In this document: positions 4,817 through 47,825 of the stretch, one piece after another
Layout of the letters: every line of letters begins with the position of its first letter
Numbering within the stretch: the stretch's first letter is position 1
Source: Demequina sp. NBRC 110052
Lineage (GTDB): Bacteria > Actinomycetota > Actinomycetes > Actinomycetales > Demequinaceae
Length of the DNA: 64,000 nt
NCBI RefSeq assembly: GCF_002090075.1
Contig: NZ_BBRI01000002.1
Location: 434,001 to 498,000, forward strand
Direction of reading: 5' to 3'
The notes under the pieces: generated by a model
The model's database searches: none
Seen by the model: only the letters and a program-made list of their open reading frames with translations
Told to the model about the DNA's origin: nothing
Made by a program: the position numbers and the translations under genes

Positions 4817-5109
4817 ACCAGCGAGATCTCGACGTGGATCTCCTCGCCCAGTTCAAGGCCCTCCGCCTTGATGACCGCGCCCTTGACGGGCATCACGAAC
4901 GTGGCGCGCTCCTTGGAGGGGAAGATCGAGGTCCGCCACGTCGTGGCACCGACGGTGACCTCCACCTTGACCGCGCCGAAGCCCCGGCGCGGACCATGCT
5001 GGAGGTCCTCGATCTCGTCCGCGAGGTCCTCGGGCAGGTCGACGAAGACCCACGAGTCGACGCGAGCCTCCCAGAGGTAGAGGCTGCCCCGGAAGCTGTA
5101 GCGCTGCAT
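4813..5109 (-). CDS. DUF1905 domain protein
   Basis: A 98-residue beta-rich protein matching the DUF1905 pattern: WVFVDLPEDLADEI, then GFGAVKVEVTVGATTWRTSIFP, then FVMPVKGAVIKAEGLELG. DUF1905 proteins are small and presumed cytoplasmic; their function is not established. The ATG at 5109 gives a complete domain. Its last codon and stop overlap the stop of nnrD through a shared palindromic CTAG, so the two genes end against each other with no space for a terminator. Confidence 0.85.
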   Translation of the reverse strand: MQRYSFRGSLYLWEARVDSWVFVDLPEDLADEIEDLQHGPRRGFGAVKVEVTVGATTWRTSIFPSKERATFVMPVKGAVIKAEGLELGEEIHVEISLV

Positions 5110-5224
5110 GGAGGGACGCTAGCACCGGCCGCCGACACTGTCGTGGGCCGACCCGGAGACCCCGCTACCGCTTCAGGTGGAGGAATGTTTCCGCCGAGTA
5201 AAATCGCGACCTCTGTGCTCGCGG

Positions 5225-41901: not shown

Positions 41902-41983
41902 GGGTTACTCCTTGCGGGCGGTCGTCGGATGCTCGCTCAAGTCTAGTGGTGCGGTGCGCAACCCCGAGCCCGCCGACGAGAGA

Positions 41984-42018
41984 GGGGTCCGGATCCTCCG
42001 CACGAGGACCCGGACCCC
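41984..42018. terminator. terminator downstream of the zinc-free ribosomal operon
   Basis: A 15-bp stem with one G-T pair has arms at 41984-41998 and 42004-42018 and a 5-nt loop. It lies between the HU-like stop and the glyS start. Confidence 0.75.
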
Positions 42019-42024
42019 TGTGGC

Positions 42025-42053
42025 GGTCGGCCGCTTCCCCACAGCGGCCGACC
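42025..42053. terminator. second hairpin directly after the HU-like gene
   Basis: A perfect 11-bp stem (42025-42035 with 42043-42053) with a 7-nt loop lies 5 nt beyond the HU-like stop. Together with the next hairpin it forms a tandem terminator. Confidence 0.75.
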
Positions 42054-42058
42054 ACGAT

Positions 42059-42352
42059 TCAGCTCGCGCGGCTCGCTGCGGCCGCAGCGCGCAAACGACT
42101 CCCTGGCTTCAGACGAGCTACATGTGCGGCCGCGACCGTGAGAGGCTCACCGGAGCGGGGATTGCGCCCCTGACGCTCAGCACGCGCGACGACGTCGAGC
42201 GACAGGATGCCGGGCAATCGCACCGACGCTCCCGCGGACGCGGCTGCGAGCAGGGAGTCTTCGATTGCAGCCAGGGCGCGGCTGGCCGCCCGGTCGCTGA
42301 TGTCAGCCGCACTGGCCATGGCGGCAATGAGGTTCTGTCGTGAGACGGTCAT
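42059..42352 (-). CDS. HU-like DNA-binding protein
   Basis: 97 residues matching the HU/IHF fold: SRQNLIAAMASAADISDRAA helices, then VRLPGILSLDVVARAERQGR and NPRSGEPLTVAAAHVARLKP, where the RNP of the DNA-intercalating arm is intact. HU proteins bend and compact DNA. It is the last gene of the Zur-controlled ribosomal-protein operon; its ATG overlaps the rpmF stop by one base (TGATG). It is therefore probably made when zinc is scarce. It is Ala-rich and lacks Cys. Confidence 0.85.
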   Translation of the reverse strand: MTVSRQNLIAAMASAADISDRAASRALAAIEDSLLAAASAGASVRLPGILSLDVVARAERQGRNPRSGEPLTVAAAHVARLKPGSRLRAAAAASRAS

Positions 42353-42555
42353 CAAGGTCCTTTCGTCGTGACGCGCGAGGCGTCGAGGGTGCTGGAGTCG
42401 AGCAGCCCACGGCGCGCGGCTGCGACGAGTCGGCGCGGGAGCCGGTAGCGGCCGCCGTCGATCGTGGCCTCTGTGAGGGTGACGTGCTCCGCCTTCCACT
42501 GCGCGCGGCGCATGCGCGTCCGGGCGCGGGAGGTCTTGCGCTTCGGTACGGCCAT
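42352..42555 (-). CDS. rpmF: ribosomal protein L32, zinc-free form
   Basis: 67 residues beginning [20 protein letters not shown], which is a clear L32 N-terminus. The four Cys that bind zinc in the usual L32 are absent, so this is the C-minus paralogue. Its ATG overlaps the rpmJ stop by one base, and its stop overlaps the HU-like start. It would replace the zinc form in the large subunit during zinc starvation. Confidence 0.9.
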
Positions 42556-42677
42556 CAGCCCTGCCTGGCCTTGAGGCGGGGGTTGCGCTTGTTGATCACG
42601 AAGGTCTTGCCTCGCCTGCGGACCACGATTGATCCTTCCTTGCGGGCGAGAGAGCGGATGCTTGCGCGCACTTTCAT
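42555..42677 (-). CDS. rpmJ: ribosomal protein L36, zinc-free form
   Basis: A 40-residue protein, translated by hand from the minus strand: it starts [20 protein letters not shown] and continues [20 protein letters not shown]. This is L36 with all zinc ligands missing. The gene overlaps rpmE2 upstream (ATGA at its start) and rpmF downstream (one base). The usual zinc-type L36 should be encoded elsewhere in the genome. Confidence 0.92.
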
Positions 42678-42925
42678 GAAATGTCCTTTCCGTAGCGGCG
42701 GTTGAAGCGCTCGACGCGCCCAGCGGTGTCGATGACCTTGGACTGACCCGTGTAGAACGGATGGCTTGCCGAGGAGATCTCGACGTCGATCACCGGGTAC
42801 TCGTTGCCGTCCTCCCAGATGACCGTCTCCGAGGAACCGCGGGTCGAGCGCGTGAGGATTGCAAAGCCTGTTGATCGGTCGCGGAATACGACGGGTCCAT
42901 ATGCGGGGTGGATTCCCTTGCGCAT
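42674..42925 (-). CDS. rpmE2: ribosomal protein L31 type B
   Basis: 83 residues: [20 protein letters not shown], then [20 protein letters not shown] and ERFNRRYGK, the type B L31 pattern. No CxxC is present. ATG 42925 is chosen, overlapping the rpsN stop by one base as in the rest of the operon; an adjacent GTG at 42928 would add one residue. It replaces the zinc-binding L31 when zinc is short. Confidence 0.95.
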
Positions 42926-43230
42926 CACCAGCTCGCCTTCGTCACGCCGGGGAGCTCGCCACGCAGGGCGGCCTGGCGGAACGACACGCGGGAGAGGCCG
43001 AACGTGTTCAGGTGGCCGCGAGGCCGGCCGTCCGCGGTGTCCCGGTTCCTCAGCCGTGTCGGGGAGGCGTCTCGCGGCAGGGCGTGGAGGGCTGACATGG
43101 CCTGTGCTCGCTCCTGGGGCGTGAGGTGCGGGTTCACCGACGCCTCCTTGAACTCGTGACGGCGCTCCGCGTAGCGGGCTACGGTCTGTTCGCGCTGGTG
43201 CTGCCGCGCGATCTTGCTCTTCTTAGCCAT
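42925..43230 (-). CDS. rpsN: ribosomal protein S14, zinc-free long form
   Basis: 101 residues: [20 protein letters not shown] at the start, [20 protein letters not shown] in the middle and [20 protein letters not shown] at the end. This long form lacks the CxxC...CxxC of the short zinc type. ATG 43230 overlaps the rpmG stop by one base. The open frame further upstream is a shadow of rpmG. Confidence 0.95.
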
Positions 43231-43397
43231 CAGCGGGTCTCCTTGAAGTCGACGTGGCACCGCGCGATCCGGTCGTACTTCCTGAGCACGAGGCGGTCCG
43301 GGGTGTTGCGGCGACTCTTGGTGGTGACGTAGCGAACGCCGGTGCCTACTGTCGACTCGAGAGTCACCTTGTCGCGGATGTCCTTGCGCGCGGCCAT
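43230..43397 (-). CDS. rpmG: ribosomal protein L33, zinc-free form
   Basis: A 55-residue protein, translated by hand: it starts [20 protein letters not shown], then [20 protein letters not shown] and ends [16 protein letters not shown]. This is L33; it has one Cys only and so no zinc knuckle. It overlaps rpmB upstream and rpsN downstream by one base each. Confidence 0.94.
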
Positions 43398-43636
43398 CAG
43401 ATCCGCTCCCCCGTCGCAAGAAGGCGTGCCGCGACTGCTTCGATGCCATCCCGGTCAATCACCTTGAGACCCTTCGCGCTGACGAAGATCGTGACTCTGC
43501 GGCCGAGGCTTGGCACCCAGAAGGTCCGGCGCTGGATGTTGACCTTCCAGCGCCTCGAGCTGCGGCGGTGGGAATGGGAGATGGACTTTCCGAAGCTGGG
43601 CACCGCTCCGGTGACTTGGCATCGCTGTGCTGACAT
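43397..43636 (-). CDS. rpmB: ribosomal protein L28, zinc-free form
   Basis: 79 residues: [40 protein letters not shown] and [20 protein letters not shown]. It has a single Cys, so it is the C-minus paralogue. ATG 43636 is the standard L28 start; 12 extra residues upstream would cross the Zur box. It is the first gene of the seven-gene operon and lies 17 nt from the Zur box. Confidence 0.94.
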
Positions 43637-43653
43637 GTCGAACAAACTAGTAA

Positions 43654-43668
43654 TGAGAATCGTTCTCG
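43654..43668. promoter_or_regulatory. Zur box between the ribosomal operon and the CobW-like gene
   Basis: TGAGAATCGTTCTCG fits the 7-1-7 Zur palindrome of actinobacteria (like TGAAAATGATTTTCA), with GAGAA and TTCTC as perfect arms. It is centred 25 nt from the rpmB start and 30 nt from the start of the divergent gene, so one site can repress both when zinc is present. Confidence 0.85.
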
Positions 43669-43690
43669 TCAAGTGCTACAGTCGGCCGCT

Positions 43691-44752
43691 ATGAGCACCT
43701 TCACCATCTCCATCCTCGCGACGATCGATCCAGTGATCCGCTCGTCGCTGTCCTTCCAACTCGCTACCGACTCGCCGGACACCGTCGTCGTCGCTCACGA
43801 TGTCGACGCCGACTCGGTATCCCACGTCGCCTCAGGGTCCTGCGGCGTCGTGGAGGAGACCAGCCACCCGCTTGCGCACTCATGCCTCTCTTGCGCAGTG
43901 CGGGAGGACGTAATCCCCACGCTCGTACGGATGCGCGAGGAGGGATGCTGGAGCCACGCCGTCGTCGCGCTTCCGGTCACCGCCGACCCCGCGCCCCTGC
44001 TCCGCTCACTCACTGTCGAGCTCGTCCGGGGCGGCGCTCTTGAGGGGAGTCAGTTCGGTGCCACCATCGCGGTGCTCGACGCCGACGCGCTCGTTGACGA
44101 CGCGTTCTCGGACGACTTGCTCGCCGATCGCGGGATCGACCTCGGCGACGATGACGACCGCGTCGTCGCAGAGGCGGTCGGACCAATCGTCGCAGTGGCG
44201 GACGTCGTGCTGCTCACTGCCGACGACGCCCCGAGCCCCGACGCGCGCGCTCTCGCCGACCATCTTCGCGGCGAGGGCTCAGCGGTGGCGGTCGCACAGC
44301 TGGGCGAGATCGACCCGGTCGACCTGTTGCGCAGGACGGGCCGCCCCTCAGACTCCCTTGAACGCGTCTCGCCCACGCACCGATCGCGCCGTTCGGTGAG
44401 CGACTCATGCGGAATCTGGACGCTCACCCTCGACAGTCCGCACCCCTTCCACCCGGGCCGACTCCGCGCAAACATGCGGCGCCTCGCCGACCACCAAGTC
44501 CAGGCGCGCGGCCACTTCTGGGTCGCGTCTCGACCGCACGGCCTCTGCGTCTGGGAGTCCGCCGGCCGTCAGCTGCGCGTCGGCGAGCACGGCCCTTGGC
44601 CCTCCACGAAGCGGCGCACGCACCTGCGGATCACCGGCATGCATGGCGATCGCTCGATGATCGCTCAAGCGTTCGCCGACTCGCTGGTGCGGCCAGGTGA
44701 GGATCTCGGCGAGCAGCTGGACACGCTCGACGACTGGTTCCCGCAAGACTGA
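43691..44752 (+). CDS. CobW-like zinc-starvation protein without P-loop
   Basis: 353 residues. It belongs to the CobW/MRF-like group next to zinc-free ribosomal genes. HSCLSCAVREDVIPTLVRMR is the conserved metal-binding CxxC region, and the C-terminal CobW_C domain is seen at HPFHPGRLRANMRRLADHQV and GHFWVASRPHGLCVWESAGR. The usual N-terminal GxxGxGKT loop is replaced by ISILATIDPVIRSSLSFQLA, so GTP binding by a normal P-loop is not expected. It may help to distribute scarce zinc. ATG 43691 is divergent from rpmB across the Zur box. Confidence 0.85.
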   Translation: MSTFTISILATIDPVIRSSLSFQLATDSPDTVVVAHDVDADSVSHVASGSCGVVEETSHPLAHSCLSCAVREDVIPTLVRMREEGCWSHAVVALPVTADPAPLLRSLTVELVRGGALEGSQFGATIAVLDADALVDDAFSDDLLADRGIDLGDDDDRVVAEAVGPIVAVADVVLLTADDAPSPDARALADHLRGEGSAVAVAQLGEIDPVDLLRRTGRPSDSLERVSPTHRSRRSVSDSCGIWTLTLDSPHPFHPGRLRANMRRLADHQVQARGHFWVASRPHGLCVWESAGRQLRVGEHGPWPSTKRRTHLRITGMHGDRSMIAQAFADSLVRPGEDLGEQLDTLDDWFPQD

Positions 44753-44761
44753 CGACATTTT

Positions 44762-44776
44762 TGACAATGATTATCA
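44762..44776. promoter_or_regulatory. Zur box upstream of znuA
   Basis: TGACAATGATTATCA is a near-perfect 7-1-7 palindrome (one mismatched pair), flanked by a further T and A pair. It is very close to the actinobacterial Zur consensus. It lies in the 44-nt gap between the CobW-like stop and the znuA start. Confidence 0.9.
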
Positions 44777-44796
44777 ATACTTTTAGGATGATGAAC

Positions 44797-45759
44797 ATGA
44801 AGATCACCACTCCCCGCGTCGGCATCGCCGCCGCAGCCTCCGCCGCACTGCTCCTCACGGCCTGCTCGTCATCGACCTCGGATGACGGCGCCATCGGGGA
44901 CCCGGCCCTCACCGTCGCCGCCGCGTTCTACCCGCTCCAGTTCGTCGCCGAGCGCGTCGGCGGCGACGACGTCTCGCTCATCTCCCTCACGCCGCCAGGT
45001 GTCGAAGCCCACGACGTCGAGCTCTCCCCCGCCACCGTGCGCGAGCTCGGCACCGCCGACCTCGCGCTATACCTGTCCGACTTCCAGCCCGCCGTCGACG
45101 ACGCGATCTCCACGACCGGCATCGCCTCGCTCGACGCCGCGAGCGTCATCGCGCTTCACGAGGCCGAGGAGCACGCTGAGGGCGACGAGGACGACCACGA
45201 CCACGACCACGAGGGCGAGGATCACGCAGACGAGCACGACCACGGCGACTCGGACCCGCACTTCTGGCTCGACCCGCACCTGCTGGCCGAGCTCGCGGGG
45301 TCCGTTGCCGAGTCCTTCGGCGAAGCGGACCCTGACAACGCGGCCACCTACTCCGCGAACGCCGACGCCCTCGTGGGCGAACTCGAGGCCCTCGACGAGT
45401 CCTTCGCCACCGGCCTCGCGCAGTGCGAGCGGGACACGATCGTCGTGAGCCACGAAGCGTTCGGCTACCTCACCGAGGCCTACGGACTGCATCAGGAGGG
45501 GCTCGCGGGACTCGACCCGGACACCGAGCCGTCGCCCGCACGACTGCTCGAGATCCAGGACATCATCGCCGAGACCGGCGTGACCACCATCTTCACCGAG
45601 TCGATCGTCTCGACTTCGGTGGCCGAGGCGCTCGCGGCCGACGTGGGCGTCGAGACCGCCGTGCTCGACCCGGTCGAGAACGTCACCGACGGTGACGACT
45701 ACATTGATGTCATGACCAGGAACCTCGCTGCGCTGCAGGCGGCCCTCGGCTGTGCCTGA
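44797..45759 (+). CDS. znuA: zinc ABC transporter substrate-binding lipoprotein
   Basis: 320 residues. A lipoprotein signal with lipobox LLTAC (Cys23) leads into a cluster A-I binding protein. The zinc ligands expected for ZnuA are visible: His72 in PPGVEAHDVELSP, His155 in DPHFWLDPH and a later His in VVSHEAFGYL, with a His/Asp/Glu-rich loop at 121-150. It captures zinc outside the membrane. ATG 44797 follows TTTTAGGA with correct spacing; starts further upstream would place the Zur box in coding sequence. Its 3' end overlaps znuC by 8 nt. Confidence 0.95.
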   Translation: MKITTPRVGIAAAASAALLLTACSSSTSDDGAIGDPALTVAAAFYPLQFVAERVGGDDVSLISLTPPGVEAHDVELSPATVRELGTADLALYLSDFQPAVDDAISTTGIASLDAASVIALHEAEEHAEGDEDDHDHDHEGEDHADEHDHGDSDPHFWLDPHLLAELAGSVAESFGEADPDNAATYSANADALVGELEALDESFATGLAQCERDTIVVSHEAFGYLTEAYGLHQEGLAGLDPDTEPSPARLLEIQDIIAETGVTTIFTESIVSTSVAEALAADVGVETAVLDPVENVTDGDDYIDVMTRNLAALQAALGCA

Positions 45760-46579
45760 TCCCACCGAAGACCGCGCCGTCCCGCCCTCGCTCGTCGAGG
45801 CGCGGGACGTCCGCGTCTCCCTGCAAGGCACCGAGATCCTGCATGGCGTCTCGCTGACCGCGAAGCCGGGCGAGGTCGTGGCGCTCATGGGAGGCAACGG
45901 CTCCGGAAAGTCGACCTTCGTGCGCACGGTCGTGGGCGCACTGCCTCTCTCGAGCGGCAGCATCGCCCTGTTCGGCACGCCGGCATCACCAGAGTCAAGG
46001 GCCCAGCTCGGCTACGTCCCCCAGCGCCTCACCGCGGCGGGCGGCGTCTCCGCGACCGCGCAGGAGGTCGTCGTCTCGGGACTCCTCGGCAGCCGCGGCG
46101 AGCGACGTGGACCGCTGTCGCGTCTCGCGGGAATCCTGCCGCCGCACGACGCGCGCGAGCGCGCCCGAGCCGCGCTCGCCTCGGTGGGCATCGAGGATCT
46201 CGCTGGCCGTGACTGCAGCCGCCTGTCCGGGGGCCAGCAGCAGCGGGTGCTCATCGCGCGCGCCTTGGTGCGCGACCCGCTCCTGCTCGTGCTCGACGAG
46301 CCCATGGCGGGCGTGGACCTCGACTCCCAAGTGCACTTCGCGCACACGCTCGGACACCTCAAGGAGCACGGCGTGGGGATGGTGATCGTGCTGCACGAGC
46401 TCGGGCCCCTCGCCCGGCACATCGACCGCGCCGTCGTGCTCGAGCGCGGCTGCGTCACCTACGACGGCCCGCCCCCGCAGGACCTCGGCGTGCACGCCCT
46501 GCCCGGCCACGACCACGAGCACCCTCATGCCGGACCGCACGACGAGGACGAGCCGACGATCGCATGGGAGGGGCCATGA
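45752..46579 (+). CDS. znuC: zinc ABC transporter ATP-binding protein
   Basis: 275 residues with Walker A (GGNGSGKST), the signature LSGGQQQRVLIARAL and Walker B (LLLVLDEP). The C-terminal tail is His-rich (GHDHEHPHAGPHDEDEP), as often seen in metal transporters. It starts at GTG 45752 inside the end of znuA, and its stop overlaps the znuB ATG. It energises zinc import with ZnuA and ZnuB. Confidence 0.95.
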   Translation: MPDPTEDRAVPPSLVEARDVRVSLQGTEILHGVSLTAKPGEVVALMGGNGSGKSTFVRTVVGALPLSSGSIALFGTPASPESRAQLGYVPQRLTAAGGVSATAQEVVVSGLLGSRGERRGPLSRLAGILPPHDARERARAALASVGIEDLAGRDCSRLSGGQQQRVLIARALVRDPLLLVLDEPMAGVDLDSQVHFAHTLGHLKEHGVGMVIVLHELGPLARHIDRAVVLERGCVTYDGPPPQDLGVHALPGHDHEHPHAGPHDEDEPTIAWEGP

Positions 46580-47415
46580 TCGCACTGCTCTCGGAGCCGT
46601 TGATCCAGCGGATGCTCCTGGTCGGCCTGCTCGTCGGATCGGCCGCGCCCGTCATGGGCACCTACCTCGTCCAGCGGCGCATGGCGCTTCTCGGAGACGG
46701 CATCGGCCACGTGGCTCTCGCGGGAGTCGCCGCCGGCTGGCTGGCGGGCTCAGCTGCGGGGCTGGCCGACCAGGACGCCTGGGCCATTCCCGGCGCCGTC
46801 ATCTTCGCGATCACGGGCGCGATCCTGATCGAGCGCATGCGTTCGCGCGGCACCGGCGCCGACGTCGTGATGGCGATCCTCTTCTACGGCGGCATCGCGA
46901 GCGGCGTCCTGCTCATCGGACTCGCCGGCGGATCCAACGCCAACCTCATGGGCTACCTCTTCGGCTCGATCTCGACCGTCACCTGGGGCGACGTCTGGAT
47001 GAGCGTCGGCCTCGCCGCGCTGATCCTGCTCATCGGCGTGGGCCTGCGCAGCGCGCTGTTCGCCGTGACCCACGACCAGGAGTTCGCACGCTCGACCGGG
47101 CTTCCCGTCGAGGTGCTGAACATGGTCGTCGCGATCCTCGCCGCGATCACCATCACCGTCGCGATGCGTGTCGTGGGCGTCCTGCTCGTGAGCGCACTCA
47201 TGATCGTGCCGGTCGCGATCGCACAGCTGCTCACGCGGTCCTTCTCGCGTGTGATGGCCCTCGCCATGGGCATCGGCGCGACGCTCACCCTGACGGGCAT
47301 CTGGATCACCGTGTTCTACGACATGCAGCCCGGCGCGCTGATCGTCGTGCTCGGCGTGCTCGCCTACGTCCTCGTCGCCGGCGCCACCGCGATGAGTGAG
47401 AGAATCCGACGATGA
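46576..47415 (+). CDS. znuB: zinc ABC transporter permease
   Basis: 279 residues with eight or nine predicted membrane segments of the ABC-3 family: APVMGTYLVQRRMALLGDGI, GHVALAGVAAGWLAG and VVGVLLVSALMIVPVAIAQL. It forms the zinc channel. ATG 46576 is preferred (ATGA overlap with the znuC stop, GGAGGGG just upstream); ATG 46564 would add four residues. Its stop overlaps the zur start. Confidence 0.94.
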   Translation: MIALLSEPLIQRMLLVGLLVGSAAPVMGTYLVQRRMALLGDGIGHVALAGVAAGWLAGSAAGLADQDAWAIPGAVIFAITGAILIERMRSRGTGADVVMAILFYGGIASGVLLIGLAGGSNANLMGYLFGSISTVTWGDVWMSVGLAALILLIGVGLRSALFAVTHDQEFARSTGLPVEVLNMVVAILAAITITVAMRVVGVLLVSALMIVPVAIAQLLTRSFSRVMALAMGIGATLTLTGIWITVFYDMQPGALIVVLGVLAYVLVAGATAMSERIRR

Positions 47416-47825
47416 CCGACGACGTCCAGCCGCGCCCCCGCATGACCAAGCAGCGGACCGCCGTCCTCGAGGCGCTCGCCGCAGGCGACTTCCGCTCGGC
47501 TCAGGACTGGCACGACCACCTCAAGCACGACGGCTCCTCGATCGGCCTCGCGACCGTGTACCGCACCCTGCAGTCCTTGGCCGAGGCAGGCGACGTCGAC
47601 ACCGTCGTCACCGACGCCGGCGAGACGCTCTACCGACGCTGCGAGACGCCCGAGGTCCATCACCACCACCTGCGCTGCCGCGTCTGCGGGAGGGCCGAGG
47701 ACATCGATATCCCGGACTTCGAGGCCTTCGCCGAGAGGGTCGGCGCGCAGCACGGGTACGCGCGCATCGACCACACCGTCGAGCTCACGGGCGTGTGCGC
47801 CGAGTGCGCCGCGAAGGGCCACTGA
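47412..47825 (+). CDS. zur: zinc uptake regulator, Fur family
   Basis: 137 residues. A winged-helix DNA-binding domain (MTKQRTAVLEALAAGDF, IGLATVYRTLQSLAEAGDVD) is followed by a metal domain with EVHHHHLRCRVCG (Cys89, Cys92) and CAECAAKGH (Cys129, Cys132). The two CxxC pairs form the structural zinc site. Fur cannot be excluded from sequence alone, but its place as the fourth gene after znuABC and the Zur boxes argue for Zur. It is cotranscribed with znuB (ATGA overlap) and so is probably autoregulated. Confidence 0.9.
   Translation: MTDDVQPRPRMTKQRTAVLEALAAGDFRSAQDWHDHLKHDGSSIGLATVYRTLQSLAEAGDVDTVVTDAGETLYRRCETPEVHHHHLRCRVCGRAEDIDIPDFEAFAERVGAQHGYARIDHTVELTGVCAECAAKGH

Follow-up and report, generated by a model that had tools for sequence, protein, structure and literature searches.

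The window analyzed here is a 64,000-nt stretch of contig NZ_BBRI01000002.1 of Demequina sp. NBRC 110052, and positions are counted from its first letter. On its minus strand, from 43636 to 42059, seven open reading frames follow one another in the order L28-L33-S14-L31-L36-L32-HU (Table 1). All six joints between them overlap, by 1, 1, 1, 4, 1, and 1 nt in gene order; the initial annotation had described start-stop overlaps of 1 to 4 nt, and those found are of either 1 or 4 nt. Its further claim that the L28, L33, S14, L31, L36, and L32 paralogues all lack Cys pairs is borne out by the Pfam searches, in which six of six ribosomal assignments exceeded the gathering scores, and by the Cys counts, which are 1, 1, 0, 0, 0, 0, and 0 from L28 to HU, with no pair in any of the proteins. 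The locus had also been called a seven-gene ribosomal operon, although only six of the genes were named; there are indeed seven genes, but the last encodes an HU protein and is not ribosomal.

Table 1. Features of the operon, its control region, and the divergent unit (window positions; matching profiles with their scores)
Feature	Position	Strand	Evidence or remark
L28 paralogue without Cys pairs, 79 aa, 1 Cys	43397..43636	-	PF00830 7.6e-23
L33 paralogue without Cys pairs, 55 aa, 1 Cys	43230..43397	-	PF00471 9.4e-16
S14 paralogue, long type, 101 aa, 0 Cys	42925..43230	-	PF00253 4.6e-23; NF006477 above cut-off
L31 type B, 83 aa, 0 Cys	42674..42925	-	NF002462 "type B L31" 128 bits, cut-off 86
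L36 paralogue, type B-like, 40 aa, 0 Cys	42555..42677	-	PF00444 7.8e-16; NF002021 "type B L36" 68.3 bits, slightly below cut-off 70
L32 paralogue, 67 aa, 0 Cys	42352..42555	-	PF01783 3.2e-11
HU/IHF-family DNA-binding protein, 97 aa	42059..42352	-	PF00216 E 1.3e-18; sole PF00216 match found in genome
Two tandem GC-rich hairpins directly 3' of HU stop	41972..42058	-	MFE -64.8 kcal/mol, z -6.5
Promoter-like elements TTGACG (43672-43667), 17 nt, TAGTTT (43649-43644)	43644..43672	-	L28 start codon 7 nt downstream
Zur-type box between divergent transcription units	43652..43669		Sole genome match at <=3 mismatches
MRF-like COG0523-type protein	43691..44752	+	CobW_C domain, CLSC motif, no P-loop
ZnuA	44761..45759	+	PF01297 2.5e-75
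ABC ATPase, ZnuC by position	45752..46579	+	PF00005 7.5e-30
ABC-3 family permease, ZnuB by position	46564..47415	+	PF00950 2.1e-52
Fur-family regulator, Zur by position	47412..47825	+	PF01475 1.3e-25

The initial annotation had suggested looking for zinc-binding counterparts elsewhere in the genome, and candidates were present for all six families. Each of L28, L33, S14, L31, L36, and L32 had exactly two matches in the genome sequence (2.61 Mb in 5 contigs, 99.99% complete), namely, the operon copy and one other, and the other copy carries Cys pairs in every case; in L36 these take the form of a CxxC followed by a Cys and a His. Judged from these residues, the other copies appear to be the zinc-binding forms. 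A reading in which the operon genes are the sole, constitutive forms is ruled out, since a second copy exists for each of the six. S18 gave one match in the genome, with 0 Cys in the translated stretch; taken with the six paired families, this suggests that, for each zinc-ribbon ribosomal protein tested, the operon supplies a zinc-free version; S4 could not be located.

A Zur-type box separates the operon from the divergent genes for an MRF-like protein, ZnuA, an ABC ATPase, ZnuB, and a Fur-family regulator. The reversed pattern, used as a control, gave 0 matches in the genome at the threshold at which ACGAGAAYGATTMTCATT itself matched once. The box is exact in this strain and in eight congeners; a ninth congener (G004) has the same promoter elements and spacing and a variant box. 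In all nine upstream regions of this strain and the eight congeners, a TTGACG element, a spacer of 17 to 18 nt that holds the box, a TAnnnT element, and 7 to 8 nt precede the L28 ATG, so that the box sits between the -35 and -10 elements. This pattern was derived by comparing the same upstream regions, and its conservation is therefore a description and not an independent test; the uniqueness of the box in the genome is the independent part. Recognized by its sequence and its conservation, the box is a putative Zur site. Together with the divergent znu and Fur-family genes, it fits with Zur control of the operon, and we infer that the Fur-family gene encodes Zur and that its product binds the box.

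The distance from the promoter elements to the start codon is so short that the operon mRNA is probably leaderless. A consensus sigma-70 promoter scan found no site, and the promoter elements of the operon itself were not scored by it either. At the other end, the tandem hairpins are a probable transcript end, so that HU falls within the probable transcription unit; a terminator scan that required a T tract found none.

The first product of the divergent unit scored 120 bits against the MRF profile NF047431, below the cut-off of 375, and no match to the P-loop GxxxxGK[ST] was found in 43691-44752; for these reasons, we call it MRF-like only and not MRF. MRF, which recruits Mpy to zinc-free ribosomes, has been described with a CXXC zinc motif (PMC13418864), and this motif is present here as CLSC. 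A protein with this motif and no P-loop may possibly be a non-GTPase zinc sensor or a ribosome factor. A similar N terminus is found opposite the operon in seven congeners, with L011 (first ATG out of frame) and L128 (variant box) left out of the reading.

The product of the last gene of the operon scored 67.5 bits against PF00216 (cut-off, 22.4), and its AlphaFold2 model has a mean pLDDT of 91.5; a Foldseek search with this model returned HU chains at ranks 2 to 7 (rank 2, E of 5.2e-8), after an ACP-DBH1 model at rank 1. The arm motif GRNP, which has a role in DNA binding, is present as G62 R63 N64 P65 and is invariant in 10 of 10 aligned rows. The score against the Escherichia coli-type HU-beta equivalog NF007945 was 52.4 bits, below the cut-off of 157.

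The operon gene was the single PF00216 match in its own genome at an E of <=0.001. HU was found in 28 of the 59 genomes of one sample (own included); in the genus part of that sample, it was found in 9 of 37 genomes (own included), always in the zinc-free ribosomal operon. With a tenth HU-bearing genus genome (G107), all 10 (own included) carry HU in the operon. The remaining 28 of the 37 genus genomes of the 59-genome sample are without detectable HU, and a few of these are incomplete assemblies. In an order-wide sample, HU was matched in 308 of 396 genomes, which indicates that the search does find HU within the order. This sample includes 34 genus genomes, among which, counted by eye, 8 have both HU and a zinc-free (C-) S14 at an E at or below 1e-53 and 26 have neither detected (20 recorded with zero HU and 6 missing from the list of genomes with a match); because the genus genomes are related, the 8 and the 26 are not independent cases. 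In G034, which has no HU, there is a weaker S14 match (3.5e-20) besides the first. In the sensitivity controls, PF00216 and PF00444 were each matched in 9 of 14 genomes, with Corynebacterium glutamicum matched by neither, whether or not the genes are present there, and a divergent HU copy may thus have been missed.

The gene order L28-L33-S14-L31-L36-L32-HU recurs in nine congeners, with exceptions at L32 in L006 and at L33/S14 in L021. In the first of these (G008, 1300-1495), L32 is not recognizable between L36 and HU in a three-frame translation of the gap, and HU is retained; in the second (G020, 462-884), L33 and S14 form one continuous open reading frame in which the C-terminal part of L33 is replaced, which is either real or an assembly error. 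Tight joints are not universal, since in L018 (G004) HU begins 233 nt after L32. Mean identity within the genus is 0.51 for HU, 0.78 for S14, 0.75 for L31, and 0.77 for L28, making HU the most divergent of the four genes; this comparison and that of dN/dS covered these four and left out L33, L36, and L32. The dN/dS of HU is 0.17 to 0.37 in the four closest congener pairs, which points to purifying selection on HU between the closest congeners. The HU studied here is the most divergent by its branch in the HU tree (1.34) and has an identity of <=0.45 to any congener HU.

Alternative ribosomal protein sets under the control of Zur have been described in Streptomyces (PMC6103462) and Mycobacterium (PMC7174638), and the operon is of this known kind. 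Mycobacterium smegmatis MSMEG_6065-6070 likewise combines zinc-free S14, L33, L28, and L31 with an MRF/CobW gene under Zur; unlike the Demequina operon, it includes S18, and L36, L32, and HU are not named in the available text (PMC7174638). The mycobacterial MRF gene sits in the C- operon (PMC13418864), whereas here the MRF-like gene is transcribed divergently from a single overlapping run of six ribosomal types and HU. The Zur regulon of Streptomyces coelicolor also holds six zinc-free ribosomal paralogues, znuABC, and a COG0523 gene (PMC6103462, Table 3); S18 takes the place of L36, HU is not in that table, and the accessible parts of the paper do not state that there is a single operon. The terms "DNA-binding protein HU," "nucleoid," and "histone" have 0 occurrences in the main text of PMC6103462.

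Three loci of Cellulomonas, one of Bifidobacterium vespertilionis, and one of an Actinomycetaceae MAG (L046, L049, L084, L050, and L044) carry L28-L33-S14-L31-L36-L32 on one strand and in the same order. The first four of these loci have a Zur-type box upstream, as seen by eye, and, in contrast to the Demequina operon, none of the five has an HU match. These five runs came from the best 80 of 578 loci, and another six-gene run without HU is that of G310 (L147). The operon of Actinotalea sp. MAG-52 (L043) does have all six ribosomal types, HU, and an upstream Zur-type box, but in the order L28-L33-S14-L36-L32-HU-L31; HU lies at 4931-5221 between L32 and L31, and its end meets the start of L31. 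All six ribosomal types were present in 6 loci among the 80 named loci (the best 80 of 578). The view in the initial annotation that six C-minus paralogues in one coupled operon are an extensive set therefore holds as to extent, but the set is not unique, given these six other loci and the six paralogues of S. coelicolor in the available part of its description. We found no report of HU in a Zur-controlled ribosomal operon in the literature accessible to us, which was mostly without subscription journals and in which "HU" is unsearchable as a term on its own.

Outside the genus, HU is linked to zinc-free ribosomal genes in another way. In many loci of the Microbacteriaceae and Micrococcaceae, HU lies downstream of zinc-free L28-L33-S14 as it does here, but L31, L36, and L32 were not found between S14 and HU. 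In these two families and family f7, 34 distinct HU sequences were located <=1 kb downstream of the C- S14 and 8 were farther off in the same locus; HU was not found in the Microbacteriaceae loci L080, L087, L095, and L112, the last of which ends at a contig end. The S14 match is single in families f6, f7, and f19, which were read from the HU tree as the Microbacteriaceae, the Micrococcaceae, and the f7 group, and the L28-L33-S14 cluster in these families is therefore presumably housekeeping.

This neighborhood is the starting point of the strongest alternative explanation, to which we give a slightly less than even chance, namely, that HU is a passenger: an ancestral neighbor of the L28-L33-S14 cluster that was caught in the operon and has no role in the zinc response. 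Because HU stands near L28-L33-S14 in families where that cluster is apparently housekeeping, the linkage could be an inherited neighborhood, and the 34 closely linked sequences and the greater divergence of HU among the four genes compared are in keeping with this explanation. The phylogenetic evidence points both ways. The HU tree (92 columns, with long branches) was built from one HU per locus and left out identical sequences, the repeat loci L123-L129, and L180 (a short match of 67 aa); with the topology free, the genus HUs fall outside a supported clade (95/95) of S14-linked HUs, which speaks against a passenger. The linkage of HU may go back to one inherited clade or to separate events. 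None of the one-clade tests led to rejection: the p-AU value was 0.451 for the genus HUs and 0.296 for all operon HUs, and at 0.195 for the genus HUs plus the rpsN-linked HUs, a common origin with the S14-linked HUs is compatible with the data. Other observations argue against a passenger, in that the Actinotalea HU is placed ahead of L31, within the conditional operon and not at its end; G008 keeps HU although its L32 is not recognizable; selection maintains HU; and within the genus HU is seen only where the operon is present. On balance, a passenger role of HU is about as likely as a functional role.

If HU does function in the zinc response, its target need not be DNA. Mycobacterial HU (MDP1) has been localized to the nucleoid, the 50S subunits, and the cell surface (PMC2453136). 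It can be envisioned that HU serves the alternative ribosome through rRNA or the 50S subunit instead of acting on DNA, as its position within a ribosomal operon and the MRF-like gene opposite might suggest; we consider this unlikely, since HU retains both its fold and the GRNP motif of the arm. Least probable is a constitutive operon in which HU is an ordinary nucleoid protein, transcribed from its own promoter within L32. HU may have such a promoter, its matches in 308 of 396 genomes show it to be common in the order, and 233 nt separate it from L32 in G004, but the box between the promoter elements, the znu and Fur-family neighbors, the second copy with Cys pairs that exists for each of the six ribosomal proteins, the 1-nt overlap of L32 and HU in this strain, and a consensus scan that found no promoter-like site in L32 (weak evidence, as the scan missed the operon promoter too) all stand against it.

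We consider it probable that the locus is a Zur-controlled zinc-sparing operon of a known kind to which the one HU found in the genome has been added. When zinc is present, Zur would occupy the shared box and both sides would be silent. When zinc is absent, the divergent side would yield the Znu importer, the regulator, and the MRF-like protein, and the operon side would yield an mRNA, probably leaderless, with its 5' end close to the L28 ATG. On this mRNA, the six zinc-free ribosomal proteins would be translationally coupled through the overlapping start and stop codons; they would replace the six zinc-binding ones, and the zinc of the latter would be freed. HU would be translated last from the same mRNA, and we propose from this position that zinc starvation is the only, or the main, condition under which HU is made. 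We infer zinc-dependent expression, translational coupling, and replacement in ribosomes from the arrangement of the locus; HU, in turn, would pack DNA, or bind RNA or ribosomes, in slowed, starved cells.

In the accessible data of a zinc limitation study (PMC8866557), the fold changes of the M. smegmatis HU gene, MSMEG_2389, are negative, and one entry reads "not DE"; the negative values count against a general rule of HU in zinc starvation. According to the available text of another report (PMC10961391), HupB is expressed when iron is very low.

In conclusion, HU is a new element of an otherwise known zinc-sparing ribosomal switch: an extensive zinc-free ribosomal set stands in one overlapping run, which ties the only detectable HU of the genome to the zinc switch. 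A wider proposal, which we advance tentatively and hold to be somewhat less probable than its opposite, is that in this genus HU is a zinc starvation protein. Species would either be without detectable HU or have HU only in the zinc-free ribosome operon; the packing of DNA (or the binding of RNA or ribosomes by HU) would be switched by zinc, via Zur, alongside ribosome remodeling, and HU may act on zinc-free, possibly hibernating ribosomes. If HU is truly absent from zinc-rich cells, these bacteria would show both what life without HU is like and what HU contributes in starvation, and the congeners without detectable HU provide a natural comparison.
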